From Streptomyces sp. NBC_01268 (lineage in GTDB: Bacteria > Actinomycetota > Actinomycetes > Streptomycetales > Streptomycetaceae), in contig NZ_CP108454.1 in assembly GCF_036240795.1 (NCBI RefSeq), forward strand, positions 5,764,001 to 5,828,000: DNA of 64,000 bases, given 5' to 3'. The translations under genes were made by a program, and so were the position numbers. Positions 40,602 to 47,517 of this stretch are shown one piece after another. Positions within the stretch are counted from its first letter, which is position 1, and every line of letters begins with the position of its first letter. A model generated the notes under the pieces. The model did no database searches. It was not told where the DNA came from and saw nothing but the letters and a program-made list of their open reading frames with translations.

Positions 40602-41003
40602 ATGCGAATCGGCGAGCTTGCCGAGCGGGCGGGCACGACCACGCGGACTCTGCGCTACTACGAGTCCCGGGGCCTCCTGACCGCGCGGCGCACGGACAAC
40701 GGCTACCGCACCTACGACGAGGACGACCTGCGGCTGCTCCGGCAGATCCGGACCCTGCAGGACTTCGGGTTCGACCTGGAGGAGACCCGGCCGTTCGTGG
40801 ACTGCCTGCGGGCCGGGCATCCGGCGGGTGACGCGTGCCCCGCGTCGCTCGCCGTCTACCGGCGCAAGCTGGCCGAGCTCGACGGGCTCATCGAGCAGCT
40901 GACGGAGGTGCGCGCCCAGGTCGGCGCGCAGCTCCTGCGGGCCGAGGCGGAACTGCCGGGCGGCCCGGAACCGCGATGCGAACTGGGAGGAGCGACGCAA
41001 TGA
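40602..41003 (+). CDS. MerR-family regulator
   Basis: 133-aa MerR protein: the winged HTH MRIGELAERAGTTTRTLRYYESRGLL opens the protein, with the TDNGYRTYDEDDL wing, then a dimerisation helix. Two Cys (FVDCLRAG, GDACPAS) at the helix start could be a metal or redox sensor, though the spacing matches no named MerR sensor. It overlaps the thioredoxin ATG by 4 bp, so the two form an operon, pointing to thiol or redox stress. Its own promoter carries the MerR dyad. Confidence 0.9.
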   Translation: MRIGELAERAGTTTRTLRYYESRGLLTARRTDNGYRTYDEDDLRLLRQIRTLQDFGFDLEETRPFVDCLRAGHPAGDACPASLAVYRRKLAELDGLIEQLTEVRAQVGAQLLRAEAELPGGPEPRCELGGATQ

Positions 41004-41347
41004 CGTACGCGACGGGCGTGGCCGAGGTCACGGACGCGGACTTCGACACCGAGGTCCTGGGGGCCGGAGTGCCGGTCCTGGTGAAGTTCACCGCGCAGTG
41101 GTGCGGGCCGTGCCGGCAGCTGACGCCGGTGCTCGGCGCCGTGGCGGCGGAGGAGGGCGAGCGGCTGCGGATCGTCGAGATCGACGTGGACCACAACCCG
41201 CTGACCACGGTGAGGTACGGGGTGATGGCGACCCCGACCCTGATGGTCTTCGACGGGGGCGAGCCCGTGAAGTCGATGGTGGGCGCCCGCCCCAAGCGCC
41301 GCCTCCTGGAGGAGCTGGCCGACGTCCTGGAGCCCTCCAGGGCGTGA
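41000..41347 (+). CDS. thioredoxin
   Basis: 115-aa thioredoxin with the active site WCGPC (FTAQWCGPCRQL) and cis-Pro segment VMATPTLMVF, the canonical fold and length. The ATG overlaps the merR stop (ATGA), so it is under the MerR-type promoter and likely redox- or metal-inducible. It ends at a 16-bp terminator stem. It reduces protein disulfides via thioredoxin reductase encoded elsewhere. Confidence 0.95.
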   Translation: MTYATGVAEVTDADFDTEVLGAGVPVLVKFTAQWCGPCRQLTPVLGAVAAEEGERLRIVEIDVDHNPLTTVRYGVMATPTLMVFDGGEPVKSMVGARPKRRLLEELADVLEPSRA

Positions 41348-41446: not shown

Positions 41447-42667
41447 CTAGCGGCCGGCCACGTCGACCAGCATCCGCGCCGCCGTCTCCGCCCCGTCCTC
41501 GCGGAAGCCGGCGGCCACGGCGGCGGCCCGCTCGCGGGTCTCCGGAGCCAGCGCCGTCCCCAGCGCCGCCGACAGGGACGCGAAGGCGGGGACCGGGCCG
41601 GCGTGCTCCGCGCCGATGCCCAGGGCGGTGACCCGCTCGGCGAAGTACGGCTGGTCGCCGCCCTGCGCCACGATCACCTGCGGTGCGCCCGCCCAGGTGG
41701 CGGTCGTCGTGGTGCCGGCGCCGCCGTGGTGCACGACGGCCGCCACCCGGCGGAACAGCGCCTGGTGGTTGGACTCGCCGACCACGAAGCAGTCGTCCCG
41801 CGCGTCGGCCGGGGCGAGTTCGGCCCAGCCGCGCGAGAGCAGCACCCGGCGGCCCTGCGCCCGGACCGCGTCGACGGCCGCCCGGGCGACGTCCTGCGGA
41901 TCGCGTACGGGGACGCTGCCGAAGCCCACGTACACGGGCGGGGTGCCGGCGTCCAGGAAGGCCAGCAGCTCGGCGGGGAGCGGGCGTTCGTCCGGCAGGA
42001 CCCACGCGCCGGTCTGCACCACGTCGAGCTCCGCCGGCCGCACCCACGGGGCGAGCACCGGGTCCGAGGCCAGCCACGGCCGGTCGGTGAAGACGTGGTC
42101 GCGCAGCGCGTCCACCGGCGGCAGGCCGACCGACACCCGGTGCCCGTTGACCGCCTCGCCGAACACGTCCTGGGCGTCCTGGGCGTCCCGCCCCCACAGC
42201 GCCGCGTGGTCCGTCACGTCCGGCGGCAGCGGGCGCCCGGGCCGTGGGATCGGCGGGTGGTGCGGCGACGGCAGGCTGACCGGCTGGTAGCTCGCGTACA
42301 CGTAGGGGATGCCCCGCTGCTCGGCGACGGTCTGCACGCCGGCCGCGGCCGGCAGGAGGCCCGTCGCCAGGAGCACGTCGCAGCCCTCCGCGACGGCGGA
42401 GACGTTCTCGTGGAACGCGGCCACCAGTTCGGCGGCCCGCCGCGGCACCCCGCCCGGCGAGGGCGGGACCTTGCCGCTCACCAGGTCCCGCACGGACGCT
42501 CCGGTGGGCACCATCGCGACGCCGACCCCGGCGAGCCGCTTCGCGAACTCCTCGTCGGGCGGCGCGCACACGAGCACCTCCGCCCCGAGCCCGCGCAGCC
42601 GCACCGCGAGTCCGACCAGCGGCTCGACGCCCCCGCGCGAGTCGTACGCCGACAACACCACACGCAT
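41447..42667 (-). CDS. GT1 family glycosyltransferase, candidate rifamycin glycosyltransferase (Rgt-like)
   Basis: 406-aa GT-B glycosyltransferase of the MGT/vancomycin GtfB-type group, cytosolic. It begins MRVVLSAYDSRGGVEPLVGL; the C-terminal nucleotide-sugar site reads ALFRRVAAVVHHGGAGTTTT and QGGDQPYFAERV. The SPHHPP segment resembles the aglycone loop of antibiotic-modifying relatives. It is divergent from a HelD/HelR helicase, and rifampin-inactivating Rgt is known to occur with such a helicase, so inactivation of rifamycin by glucosylation is the leading hypothesis. Macrolide or other aglycones are not excluded. The ATG at 42667 is the first Met matching the family start. Confidence 0.8.
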   Translation of the reverse strand: MRVVLSAYDSRGGVEPLVGLAVRLRGLGAEVLVCAPPDEEFAKRLAGVGVAMVPTGASVRDLVSGKVPPSPGGVPRRAAELVAAFHENVSAVAEGCDVLLATGLLPAAAGVQTVAEQRGIPYVYASYQPVSLPSPHHPPIPRPGRPLPPDVTDHAALWGRDAQDAQDVFGEAVNGHRVSVGLPPVDALRDHVFTDRPWLASDPVLAPWVRPAELDVVQTGAWVLPDERPLPAELLAFLDAGTPPVYVGFGSVPVRDPQDVARAAVDAVRAQGRRVLLSRGWAELAPADARDDCFVVGESNHQALFRRVAAVVHHGGAGTTTTATWAGAPQVIVAQGGDQPYFAERVTALGIGAEHAGPVPAFASLSAALGTALAPETRERAAAVAAGFREDGAETAARMLVDVAGR

Positions 42668-42791
42668 CTTCGTGTCCCCGTCCTCAGTGGATCTTGCTCG
42701 AACGGCCGATTCTGCCGCAGTGGCGCGCGGGGACGGGGCCGTGCGGACGGACGCGCGGGGACGAACGGGGAGGAACGCGGGCACAAAAAAG

Positions 42792-42870
42792 CCCCGGACT
42801 AGAATTGACAGCCGGGGTCGCCACTCGCGTATATTAATAGATTCCGTGTCCGGACATGGAAAAGACACGG
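42792..42870 (+). promoter_or_regulatory. helD/helR promoter with inverted repeats
   Basis: -35 TTGACA (42805-42810, perfect), 19-bp spacer, -10 TATATT (42830-42835). CCCCGG (42792-42797) and CCGGGG (42812-42817) bracket the -35. Downstream, the palindrome TGTCCGGACA (42847-42856) and an outer CCGTGTC/GACACGG pair (42844-42850, 42864-42870) sit in the leader. Candidates for the rifamycin-associated element, whose exact consensus I cannot verify. Confidence 0.6.
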
Positions 42871-42910
42871 AGAAGTTCAATAAACGCACTGTATCGCGCC
42901 GGGAGTCGAA

Positions 42911-45148
42911 TTGTCAACCGAGGAATTTCGGAAAGAGCAGCGATTCATCACCGAGCTCTACGCACGACTCGACGACCTGAGGGACCGGGCCGAGGCCGGA
43001 GTCGCGCGGGCGCTCGCCACCTCGGGGGAGGGCAGCGCGCAGGCGCGGCTGGAACGGGACGTGCTCGTCGCCGAACAGGCCGGGCTGCTCGCCGCGTTCA
43101 ACGCGGGCGAGACCGGGCTCTGCTTCGGACGCCTCGTCTTCCAGGACGGACGCGACCACCACATCGGCCGGATCGGCATCCGCGAGGACGACCCGAACCG
43201 CACCCCCCTCGTCGTCGACTGGCGCGCCGAGATCGCCCGCCCGTTCTACCTCGCCACCGGATACGAGCCCATGGGCCTCAGCCGCCGGCGGCACATCACC
43301 ACCCACGGCCGCGAGGTCGTCTCGCTCCACGACGAGGTGCTCGACCTCGCCGACGCCACCCGCTCCGGGCACGAGAGCCGCGACGCCGACGAGGTCCTGC
43401 TCGCCGCGCTCGACGCCGCCCGGACCGGCCGCATGCACGACATCGTGCAGACCATCCAGGCCGAACAGGACGCCATCATCCGCTCCCCGCACCGCGGGGT
43501 CCTCGTCGTCGAGGGCGGCCCCGGCACCGGCAAGACCGCCGTCGCCCTGCACCGCGCCGCCTACCTGCTCTACGCCCACCGCGAGCAGCTCGCCAAGCGG
43601 GCCGTGCTCATCGTCGGCCCCAACCCCGCCTTCCTCGGCTACATCGGCAACGTACTGCCCTCCCTCGGCGAGACCGGCGTCCTGCTCGCCACCCCCGGCG
43701 AGCTCTTCCCCGGCGTCCGCGCCACCGGCACCGACACCCCCGAGGCCGCCACCGTCAAGGGCTCCGCCGTCATGGCCGACGCCCTCGCCGCCGCCGTGCG
43801 CGACCGCCAGCAGGTCCCCGAGCGCGGGGAGCCGCTGATCGTCCCGCACGAGGACGGCGACCTGGTCATCGACTGGGACATGGCCCTGGAAGCCCGCCAC
43901 AAGGCCCGCGAGACCTTCCTCCCGCACAACCTCGCCCGCCCCTACTTCGTCTTCCGGATCCTCGACGCCCTCGCCGAGCAACTCGCCGACCGCATCGGTG
44001 CCGACCCCTACGGCGGCCCCAACTTCCTCGGCCCCGACGACCGCGCCCTGCTCGCCAAGGGCGTCGCCGCCAACCCCGAGGTGCACAGCGCCCTCGACAC
44101 CCTCTGGCCGGACCTCACCCCGCAGGAGTTCCTGGCCGACTACCTCGCCGAGCCCACCCACCTGGACGAGGCGGACATCGAGGCGATCCGGCGCACCGGC
44201 GACGGCCCCTGGACCCCCGCCGACGTCCCCCTCCTCGACGAGGCCGCCGAACTCCTCGGCGAGGACGACTCGGCCGCCCGCGCCGCCGAGGAGGCCGAGC
44301 GGCAGAAGCAGATCCAGTACGCCCAGGGCGTCCTCGACGTCTCCTTCGCCTCCCGCACCTACGAGTTCGAGGACAAGGAGGAGCTCGACAAGGACGCCTC
44401 CGAGGTGCTCTCCGCGCACGACATCATCGACGCCGAGCGCTTCGCCGAACGCCACGAGGAGGCCGACCACCGCAGCGCCGCCGAACGCGCCGCCGCCGAC
44501 CGCACCTGGGCCTTCGGCCACATCATCGTCGACGAGGCGCAGGAGCTCTCCGCGATGGCCTGGCGGCTCCTCATGCGCCGCAGCCCGACCCGCTCCATGA
44601 CCCTGGTCGGCGACCCCGCCCAGACCGCCGACCCGGCCGGCGTCGGCTCCTGGGAGCGGATCCTCGCGCCGTACGTGGCGGACCGCTGGGAGCTCGTCCG
44701 GCTCGGCGTCAACTACCGGACCCCGGCCGAGATCATGGCCGTCGCCGCCGAGGTGCGGCGCACCGCCGACCCGGCGTTCGAGCCGCCCCGCTCGGTCCGC
44801 TCCACGGGCGTCGAGCCCTGGGACCGGACCGTCGAGGACCCGGTCAAGGAGACCGCCGACGCCGTCGCCGCGGAGCCGGCCGGCGAGGGCAGACTCGCGG
44901 TGATCGCCCCGGTCGCCCTCCACCCGGCGCTGCTGGCGGCCCTGCCGGACGCCTCGTACGGTCCGAAGCCCGACCTCACCCGGCAGGTCGTGCTGCTCGA
45001 CCCGCGCCAGGCCAAGGGCCTGGAGTTCGACACCGTCCTCGTCGTCGACCCCGACGGCATCCGGGACGGCGCCACGCACGGCATCAACGACCTGTACGTG
45101 GCGCTCACCCGGGCCACCCAGCGGATGGGCGTGATCAGGCGGGCCTGA
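42911..45148 (+). CDS. HelD-family RNA polymerase-associated ATPase (HelR-like)
   Basis: 745-aa UvrD/Rep-like ATPase of the HelD class that binds RNA polymerase and recycles stalled complexes; the HelR branch displaces rifamycin from polymerase and confers tolerance. The N-terminal coiled coil (~1-70) would enter the secondary channel. Walker A is [21 protein letters not shown] (~203-223) and Walker B is [13 protein letters not shown] (~537-549). Motif VI is [15 protein letters not shown] near the end. The long middle region (~330-520, acidic) corresponds to the HelD clamp/PEN loop insert. Divergent from the GT1 gene. Class is certain; HelR versus HelD is inference from context. Confidence 0.88.
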
Positions 45149-47381
45149 ACCACACCGTCGCCAGCGGCGGCAGCGTCGTCCGCAGGCTCGCGGAACGCCC
45201 GTGCCACGGCACCGACTCGGTCTTCACCGGGTCGGTGCCCACCACGTCCCCGCCGCCGTAGCGGGCCGCGTCCGTGTTCAGCACCTCCGCCCAGGCCGCG
45301 AACGTGTCCGGCACGCCGAGCCGGTAGTCGTGCCGCACCACCGGGGAGAAGTTGCACACGGCGAGCAGCGGGGAGCCGCAGGCGTCGAAGCGGAGGAAGG
45401 CGAAGACGTTGTCCTCGGCCGCGTCGCCCACCACCCACTGGAAGCCCTCGGGCGAGGTGTCCCGCTCCCACAGCGCCGGCGTCGCCGTGTACACCGTGTT
45501 CAGGTCGCGCACCAGGTCCCGCACGCCCCGGTGGTCGGCCTCCGCCCCGTACGACGGGTCGAGCAGCCACCAGTCGGGGCCGTGGTCCACCGACCACTCC
45601 GCTCCCTGGGCGAACTCCTGCCCCATGAACAGCAGCTGCTTGCCCGGGTGGGCCCACATGAAGCCCAGGTAGGCGCGGTGGTCGGCCCGCTGCTGCCACC
45701 AGTCGCCGGGCATCTTCGACACCAGCGCCCGCTTGCCGTGCACCACCTCGTCGTGGGAGATCGGCAGGATGTAGTTCTCGCTGTACGCGTACACCATCGA
45801 GAAGGTCATCTCGTGGTGGTGGTACTTGCGGTGCACCGGCTCCTTCCCGACGTAGCCGAGGGAGTCGTGCATCCAGCCCATGTTCCACTTCAGGCCGAAG
45901 CCCAGCCCGCCGAAGCCGCCCGGACCCACCTGGTCCGTCGGCCGGGTCACCCCGTCCCAGGCGGTGGACTCCTCGGCGAAGGTGACGACCCCCGGGCAGC
46001 GCCGGTACACGGTGGCGTTCATCTCCTGGAGGAACGCCACCGCGTCCAGGTTCTCCCGCCCGCCGAACTCGTTCGGCAGCCACTCGCCGTGCTCGCGCGA
46101 GTAGTCCAGGTAGAGCATCGAGGCGACCGCGTCGACCCGCAGTCCGTCGAGGTGGAAGCGCTCGCACCAGTACACGGCGTTGGCGACCAGGAAGTTGCGC
46201 ACCTCCTTGCGCCCGTAGTCGAACTCCAGCGTCCCCCAGTCGGGATGGGCCGAGCGGCGCGGGTCCTCGTGCTCGTACAGCGGCCGCCCGTCGAACTCCG
46301 CGAGCGCCCAGTCGTCCCGCGGGAAGTGCGCCGGCACCCAGTCCATCAGGACGCCGATGCCCGCCTGGTGCAGGGCGTCCACCAGGTAGCGGAAGTCGTC
46401 GGGGGTGCCCAGCCGGGCCGTCGGCGCGTAGAAGCCGGTGACCTGGTAGCCCCAGGAGCCGTGGAAGGGATGCTCGGCGACCGCCATGAACTCGACGTGG
46501 GTGAAGCCGAGGTCGCGCACGTAGCCGGGCAGCTGCTCGGCCAGCTGCCGGTAGGTGAGCCCGGGCCGCCAGGACGGCAGGTGCAGCTCGTACACGGACA
46601 GCGGCGCCTCGTGGTGCGGGCGTGCCCCGCGCCGCTCCATCCACTCCGCGTCGCCCCACACGTGGTGGTCGTCGGTCACCACCGACGCCGTGTTCGGCGG
46701 GCACTCGGTGCGGCGGGCCATCGGGTCGGCGCGGACCGTGTGCGAGCCGTCCGGGCGGGCGATGTCGAACTTGTACAGCGCGCCCTCGCCGACGCCCGGC
46801 ACGAACAGCTCCCACACGCCCGACGAGCCGAGCGAGCGCATCGGCAGCGCGCTGCCGTCCCAGTACGTCCAGTCGCCGGTGACCCGCACCCCGCGGGCGT
46901 TCGGCGCCCACACGGTGAAGCGGGTGCCGGCCGTGCCCTGGTGGGTCATGACGCGGGCGCCGAGCGCCGTCCACAGCTCCTCGTGCCGGCCCTCGCCGAT
47001 CAGGTGCAGGTCGAGCTCGCCGAGGGCGGGCAGGAAGCGGTACGGGTCGTCGACGGGCAGCTCGTCGGCGTCGTACCGCACCCGGAGCTCGTACGCGGGC
47101 ACCTTCCGCAGCAGCGGGACCAGCCCGGAGAACAGCCCGTCCCCCTCGTCGTCGAGGACGATCCGCCGCCCCTTCGGCAGGAGCACGGCCACCTCCTTCG
47201 CCCAGGGGCGGAGCACCCGCACCACGATCCCGCCCTTGACCGGGTGGGCGCCGAGCACGCCGTGCGGGTCGTGGTGCTCACCGGCGAGCAGCCGGGCCCG
47301 GTCGCCGGGATCCAGCGGCGGGGCCTTCCGCGCGCTGCCTGCCGTCTTGCCAGCCGTCTTGCCTGCGGGACGGGGGGTCAC
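45135..47381 (-). CDS. glgB: 1,4-alpha-glucan branching enzyme
   Basis: 748-aa GlgB (GH13_9) adding alpha-1,6 branches to alpha-glucan, here to the GlgE polymer. N1 and CBM48 domains (~15-200) precede the barrel with [11 protein letters not shown] (nucleophile Asp), VVTFAEES (acid Glu) and [11 protein letters not shown]. The start GTG at 47381 is fixed by AGGAGG 7 bp upstream on the minus strand; a longer frame to 47480 lacks one. The 3' end overlaps the convergent helR coding end by 14 bp with no terminator between. Four-gene operon glgE-treS-mak-glgB. Confidence 0.95.
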
Positions 47382-47517
47382 CGGGATGCCTCCTGGAGGG
47401 CGAGGGGTACGGGGGTACGAGGACGCAACGGCGCCGCCCGGCTCGGGGAAACTCGGCCGAACGGTGCGAGTCGCCTCCACCGCAGGCCCGCGCCCCGGCC
47501 GGTTCGGCCGAACGGGG

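Follow-up and report, generated by a model that had tools for sequence, protein, structure and literature searches.

Promoter elements between helD and its divergent neighbour

The stretch analysed here (the window) comprises 64 kb of the 8.5-Mb chromosome of Streptomyces sp. NBC_01268 (positions 5764001–5828000) and contains two genes that are read outward from a 243-bp intergenic region (42668–42910): a GT1 glycosyltransferase (GT) gene (41447–42667, minus strand, 406 amino acids) and helD (42911–45148, plus strand, 745 amino acids from a TTG start), which encodes a class II HelD ATPase. The original prediction saw in them a two-part rifamycin-resistance locus, possibly induced as a whole from the shared region. 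The divergent gene pair, its coordinates, the relatives of both products and the intergenic interval all hold up, as do the inverted repeats described for this region, of which there are two; the TTGACA/TATATT promoter is also present, with a 19-bp spacer, but it is opposed by a second promoter that had gone unnoticed. We suggest, with a probability of roughly 60 %, that two independent things adjoin here, namely a core helD gene controlled by interference between opposed, conserved promoters, and an inserted GT gene of the rifampin glycosyltransferase (Rgt) type that has no rifamycin-associated element (RAE).

The putative promoter antisense to helD (42888–42917, minus strand) consists of a −35 element TTGACA (42917–42912), an 18-bp spacer and a −10 element TACAGT (42893–42888), with an inferred start at about 42881; its −35 overlaps the TTG start codon of helD and the second codon, TCA. 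It is the sole TTGACA-N17/18-TAnnnT site of the window, for which 40 Markov resamples gave a mean of 0.05, and is one of 11 such sites in the genome. The first set of helD leaders comprised 109 further orthologs of the genus (29 loci from the initial ortholog search and 80 taken down its list of matches), drawn from the 186 genomes, the own one aside, that had a match; after L065 (from the same genome as L094) had been dropped for its missing N-terminus, 109 rows including the window remained. Here TTGACA is exact in 109/109 rows under a search that allowed one mismatch, and TAnnnT stands at the −10 place in all of them, at a spacing of 17 bp in 11 and 18 bp in 98. Addition of 41 of the 49 loci from class and family searches (Streptomycetaceae; the eight distant loci were treated apart) gave 150 rows, in which a few genomes are represented twice and which contain 146 distinct leaders when 90 bases are compared. 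TTGACA is intact in 150/150 (the script used for this set demanded an exact TGTCAA beside a ribosome-binding-like motif, and no row failed), and the spacer is 17 bp in 12 rows and 18 bp otherwise.

Within the antisense −10, T1, A2 and T6 are kept in 149 of the 150 rows, and positions 3–5 vary (diversities 0.61–0.67) to yield 31 hexamers, so that at least 30 changes occurred inside the element, none of them on T1, A2 or T6. The exception, L195, carries two copies of TGTCAA, and the copy that was not chosen fits (TAGGGT). Judged from the aligned leaders, this pattern of variation is the signature of a −10 element, and we know of no sense-strand function for ANNNTA at this place. On the coding side, the helD start codon is TTG in 149 rows and GTG in one, the frame is open into helD in all 150, and the second codon is TCA in 150/150, a codon that is rare in the window (5 of 210 serine codons in 11 genes). 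No RAE within 3 mismatches was found up to 300 bp upstream of helD in the 150 rows.

The facing sense promoter of helD (42805–42835, plus strand) has its −35 at 42805–42810 and its −10 at 42830–42835, with an inferred start at about 42842. Its −10 departs from TATATT by at most one base in 138 of 149 rows and its spacer is mostly 18–19 bp; the sense −35 is variable between rows, whereas the antisense −35 is perfect. This sense −35 sits in the loop of hairpin 1 (42785–42818, minus strand; GCCCCGG at 42791–42797 and CCGGGGT at 42812–42818, with TTTTTT at 42790–42785), a predicted terminator of the antisense RNA. Hairpin 2 (42842–42872, plus strand; TTCCGTGTC / GACACGGAG) lies between the inferred start sites, where the helD leader has its 5′ end. 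With start sites assumed to lie 7 nt from each −10, the start-to-start distance is 37–43 bp in 119 of 138 rows and 48–60 bp in the other 19, and from the antisense start to the far end of hairpin 1 the median is 94 nt (range 71–114); in the window, the promoter and hairpin 1 together would yield an antisense RNA of about 95 nt (42785–42881, minus strand), the folding of which scores z −2.2 against shuffles. Stem scores exceed the 95th percentile of shuffled sequences in 77 % of the 138 rows for hairpin 1 and in 55 % for hairpin 2. Since the hairpin arms differ widely in sequence between species (103 left arms in 138 rows), the conserved part is the promoter and the geometry. The sequence elements, their geometry and the conservation of the promoter pair are direct observations on these leaders.

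Some further features of the leader may be recorded here. Hairpin 2, right at the 5′ terminus of the helD mRNA, possibly bears on the stability of that mRNA or on clearance of the promoter. An extra GC-rich hairpin (GGCCCC...GGGGCC) stands between the inferred starts in leaders such as L133, L138, L139, L144, L145, L160 and L162, which are probably the rows with a start distance of 50–53 bp rather than about 40 bp. Matches to the Rfam families anti-hemB (22.6 bits against 49.5 required; 42783–42873, minus strand) and Scr6106 (30.5 against 52.5) were sub-threshold and were taken as chance matches to terminator-like hairpins.

The pattern TATATT-N45/65-ANNNTA-N17/18-TGTCAA has exactly one match in each of 46 out of the 61 genomes searched, its reversed control none in any of the 61; the match whose position was compared with helD, that of the own genome, is the helD site, and one of the 46 (G037) has a different-looking leader. 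Among 48 distant helD-like leaders, where the search range was wider and some matches may be chance, exact TTGACA together with TAnnnT occurs in 13 (f18 contributes six of its seven leaders, f37 and f17 two each, f46 and f19 one each, and the own genus one divergent gene); the rest have a one-mismatch −35 or none, and TTGACG is present in several f17 leaders. The antisense promoter was not found in the helD-like leaders of families f4, f13, f28, f9 and f14 within this set, nor in any of the four helD paralogs of the own genome, of which some 460 bp around each approximate start were covered, and no RAE with up to 3 mismatches was found in the 48 distant leaders. In the core helD leaders examined, the promoter pair is present and an RAE is absent. 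In those parts of the open-access literature that were accessible, we found no description of convergent promoters upstream of Streptomyces helD (SCO5439/SVEN_5092).

Core helD and its paralogs

The HelD of the window aligns over its full length with HelD of Mycobacterium smegmatis (E=3.9e-170), keeps the P-loop and carries an acidic insertion at the primary-channel loop, and thus shows all three marks of class II HelD, i.e. full-length homology to mycobacterial HelD, P-loop and primary-channel loop. That loop is held responsible for the removal of rifampicin by class II HelD in the accessible text of PMC10719064. Its Glu-Asp tip is not aligned in the window HelD, which has Ala-Ser there with Asp and Glu adjacent. 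The predicted HelD/HelR-type ATPase is therefore borne out as regards class, but the protein scores below the cut-offs of both HelR models (426 against 750 bits for NF041254; 716 against 1100 bits for NF041258), as it does with the equivalog model for mycobacterial HelD (M. smegmatis; 642 bits against 1051). We take NF041254 to describe the SVEN_6029-type HelR of Streptomyces venezuelae and NF041258 to be a second HelR model, the strains behind the models being our assumption. Like HelR, the window HelD is a class II ATPase with P-loop and primary-channel loop; it differs in its sub-cut-off scores, its missing RAE and its separate ortholog group, and on the scores and the lack of an upstream RAE we ruled out HelR identity. 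According to the part of PMC8655204 that was accessible, some genes of the HelR group likewise have no clear RAE.

Close matches to the window HelD (E<=1e-150) are present in 187 of 199 sampled Streptomyces genomes, and MerR, trxA, helD and glgB stand together at 15 of 17 loci inspected. In the window, the customary upstream neighbour is a trxA-like thioredoxin gene (41000–41347, plus strand), the GT gene lying between it and helD, and the customary convergent downstream neighbour is glgB (45135–47480, minus strand). SCO5439 presumably also lies beside glgB, which would match the position of helD here. Sequence and gene order together identify the window HelD as a core Streptomyces ortholog, not HelR. 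A tRNA-Gly call by ARAGORN inside glgB (46786–46878, minus strand) is probably spurious.

The own genome has four further HelD paralogs. One of them (681879–683846 of the genome) scores 1221 bits on the HelR model NF041254 and is preceded by a perfect RAE at 684099. In two others, L054 (4.63 Mb) and L056 (4.42 Mb), the whole primary-channel loop region is absent from the alignment, in which sequences were trimmed to the aligned stretch; because of this absence, these two might not displace rifamycin in the manner of HelR. A role of the two window genes in a defence system was also considered and rejected, since in PADLOC HelD matches only helicase-type parts such as GajB, at below 40 bits, and the GT has no match.

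The glycosyltransferase gene as an insertion

The best solved relatives of the GT are GtfB, GtfA and GtfD, and its best curated family is Rgt (NF000354), with 505 bits compared with 38 for the macrolide GT (MGT) model. The Rgt cut-off of 800 bits is reached neither by the window GT nor by any of the seven RAE-bearing relatives scored (480–617). In a tree of 111 rows, which took in no macrolide GT and no characterised Rgt, the window GT falls into a supported 10-row clade together with six rows that have an RAE and three that do not, and has the longest end branch of that clade; it retains 98 of the 99 columns that are strongly conserved in 95 RAE-bearing relatives. Taken together, the tree and the NCBIfam scores group it with RAE-bearing Rgt relatives rather than with macrolide GTs, as had been foreseen, and it probably still glycosylates a rifamycin-like substrate. 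Elsewhere in the tree, five Rgt-like GTs (L015, L019, L020, L023 and L279) form a supported clade in which all are without RAE, perhaps with another substrate.

The region from which the two genes were supposed to be jointly induced contains no RAE: none with 4 or fewer mismatches was found in 42668–42910, the best match having 6, and this outcome, which the original prediction had listed among the findings that would refute it, speaks against joint induction from the region. Nor did we accept a degenerate RAE before the GT, considering that the best matches have mismatches at 6 of 19 positions and that one lies about 10 bp off the usual place. What the GT leader does retain is a CAGAAT box (42709–42714, minus strand), 41 nt ahead of the start codon of the GT, which looks like a relic of an RAE-linked promoter: in five RAE-bearing relatives CAGAAT lies 40–44 nt from the start codon, and in the window the RAE beyond it is gone. 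By sequence, then, the window GT is an Rgt-type enzyme off the RAE regulon, its RAE lost. It shares with Rgt (NF000354) the best family match, the nesting among RAE-bearing relatives and the conserved columns, and differs in its sub-cut-off score, the loss of the RAE and its long end branch. The RAE regulon itself is present elsewhere in the own genome in the form of three perfect RAEs, one before a second Rgt (64 % identical to the window GT; RAE at 372616), one before HelR and one without an assigned gene, and none at the window locus. Genes for Rgt and HelR, the pair of functions that had been proposed for the window genes, are thus found under RAE control at other places of this genome. 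The third perfect RAE (6663080–6663098 of the genome; L003, L050) may point to a further rifamycin-responsive gene.

The view of the window genes as a two-part rifamycin unit is not supported either, given the missing RAE, the core nature of HelD and the surroundings of helD in related species. No GT match was found within 12–13 kb around helD in nine sister species whose HelD is 88–90 % identical. In other species the gap upstream of helD is occupied by unrelated genes, which we named from their sequences by eye, with no family search: they are Ser/Thr-kinase-like (L092), hydrolase-like (L093, where trxA was not found), aminoacyl-tRNA-synthetase-like (L094), methyltransferase-like (L096) and WGR-like (L097). 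The promoter pair beside the insert is intact in L092, L093, L096 and L097; in L094 it is gone together with the helD N-terminus. Upstream of the helD cassette lies a site that takes up unrelated genes. Conversely, no HelD match was found near the other GTs of the window clade in the stretches inspected (10 loci, 9 of them distinct, L047 and L235 being one contig), and a GT match at E<=1e-190 occurs in only 8 of 295 genomes of the genus, the own genome included. Because the protein database holds three closer GT proteins (87–92 % identical to the window GT) of unseen surroundings, the pairing may recur in close strains. On this comparative evidence the window GT and helD are not a built-in pair; an Rgt-type GT was inserted beside core helD.

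Units of the predicted kind do exist. Among the best 80 of 448 confirmed GT loci (L233–L312), an RAE (up to 2 mismatches within 200 bp upstream) is present at 69 and a HelD-like gene at 43; 38 of the 43 are nearer to HelR than to core HelD, and 36 of these 38 HelR-type genes begin within about 0.7 kb downstream of the GT. Within the same 80 loci, RAE-rgt-helR units are widespread across actinobacterial genera, and a downstream HelD of another type (45–46 % to core HelD) occurs in single Rhodococcus, Nocardia, Kutzneria and Solihabitans loci.

What the promoter pair may read

In Bacillus subtilis, helD and pps are governed by a dual-promoter rifampicin alarm, in which the antisense promoter, the stronger of the two, holds the sense promoter down as long as no polymerase with bound rifampicin is trapped at the antisense promoter (Sudzinova et al. 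2026, PMC12802891; here and below as stated in the accessible text). At B. subtilis helD the start sites are 39 bp apart, the antisense RNA ashelD is about 94 nt long, and shortening the start distance by 17 bp abolishes induction (PMC12802891). The Streptomyces locus apparently shares with this system a helD gene behind a weaker-looking sense promoter that is faced by an antisense promoter, about 39–40 bp between inferred starts, a predicted antisense RNA of about 94 nt, and a terminator that separates the promoter pair from the upstream gene; two features of the alarm, facing promoters upstream of the gene and a start distance of about 39 bp, can thus be recognized in the sequence. It differs in its class II HelD, in the antisense −35 that lies over the start codon and in the sense −35 that lies in the terminator loop.

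We infer that both promoters fire, that they differ in strength and interfere, and that a trigger acts on them; the closer match to consensus hints that the antisense promoter is the stronger. Core helD would be expressed from a weak sense promoter opposed by a stronger, conserved antisense promoter, whose transcript would end after about 95 nt at the hairpin terminator. Polymerase leaving the antisense promoter would collide with or displace polymerase at the sense promoter and keep helD low; polymerase held at the antisense promoter would lift the interference, so that HelD would rise and clear stalled polymerase. The trigger might be RNA-polymerase poisons such as rifamycins, or the guanosine triphosphate (GTP) or growth state. 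The Rgt-type GT would have been inserted between trxA and this control cassette, with loss of its RAE and with no evident co-regulation with helD.

By analogy with B. subtilis, core helD may carry, in Streptomyces and in at least some further families of actinobacteria, an ancient, protein-free alarm, in which the facing promoters read poisoned or paused RNA polymerase and release HelD, as an RAE-independent second sensor beside RAE-HelR, and in which the antisense −35 fixes the TTG start and the rare TCA codon genus-wide; this is a tentative proposal, which we put somewhat short of even odds. Rifamycin sensing by the promoter pair is likewise tentative, and the S. venezuelae report cited below speaks against it. 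Several observations weigh against control of helD by the opposed promoters. The sense −10 is unrecognisable in 11 of 149 rows, and the sense leader of the window folds no better than shuffles (z −0.33). In the genome of L094/L065, where a gene has been inserted, neither the helD N-terminus nor any of the cassette is present next to it, and the promoter cassette is therefore not indispensable. In B. subtilis it is the antisense promoter that has a long 19-bp spacer, whereas in Streptomyces the antisense spacer is 18 bp (17 in 12 rows) and the sense spacer is mostly 18–19 bp. Finally, of the five S. venezuelae helD genes only the RAE-bearing SVEN_6029 is rifampicin-induced, according to the accessible text of Larsen et al. 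(PMC8655204), citing Surette et al. By size and name, SVEN_5092 is likely the core ortholog, another of these five genes. Artefact peaks in chromatin immunoprecipitation are often a sign of heavy occupancy by polymerase. In a WhiA ChIP-seq study, the untagged control gave a single peak, which lay, as far as the accessible text states, upstream of sven5092 (PMC3781837); this may be slight, stray support for the promoter pair, antibody cross-reaction being possible.

The SVEN_6029 result favours a reading in which the convergent promoters do interfere but answer to GTP level, growth phase or polymerase traffic, rifamycin sensing having passed to the RAE-HelR paralog, which the own genome indeed has. 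In B. subtilis, the antisense promoter has a higher demand for GTP, and the authors tie this to higher helD expression in sporulation (PMC12802891). The geometry, on the other hand, matches the B. subtilis version that senses rifampicin, and since that mechanism needs only differences in strength and escape, any inhibitor of initiation should disturb it; we regard the GTP or growth reading as a real prospect that stays well under even odds. That the antisense RNA acts post-transcriptionally, by pairing with the 5′ part of the helD mRNA, is unlikely: the predicted RNA would cover the first 40 nt or so of the leader including hairpin 2, but would leave the ribosome-binding site and start codon uncovered, and the hairpin arms vary as widely as described above. 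It is slightly more unlikely that in the own genome the antisense promoter was captured as the promoter of the inserted GT. The GT lies downstream of it in the same orientation, and its own promoter no longer has the RAE-bearing part, but the hairpin with six T (42785–42818) stands between and should terminate the transcript. Least probable is the co-induction of GT and HelD by rifamycin from the shared region, which we reject: an Rgt-group GT, a class II HelD with primary-channel loop and the frequency of RAE-rgt-helR units elsewhere would suit it, but the region has no RAE, HelD is the core ortholog and not HelR, the pairing is absent from sisters and inspected GT relatives, the same gap holds unrelated inserts in other species, and RAE-Rgt and RAE-HelR lie elsewhere in the own genome.

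The reading of the window as a two-part locus is thus corrected, and the true RAE-rgt-helR units are located elsewhere. For the sensing of rifamycins by actinobacteria, for which no regulator is known, the core helD promoter pair offers a testable candidate. If the proposed alarm exists, it would contradict the published picture of actinobacterial helD as dependent on the RAE; the B. subtilis authors state that a dual promoter is not common to all helD genes, and that in actinobacteria the protection genes, helD among them, are equipped with an RAE (PMC12802891). The same promoter logic would then operate in two phyla and with two classes of HelD.

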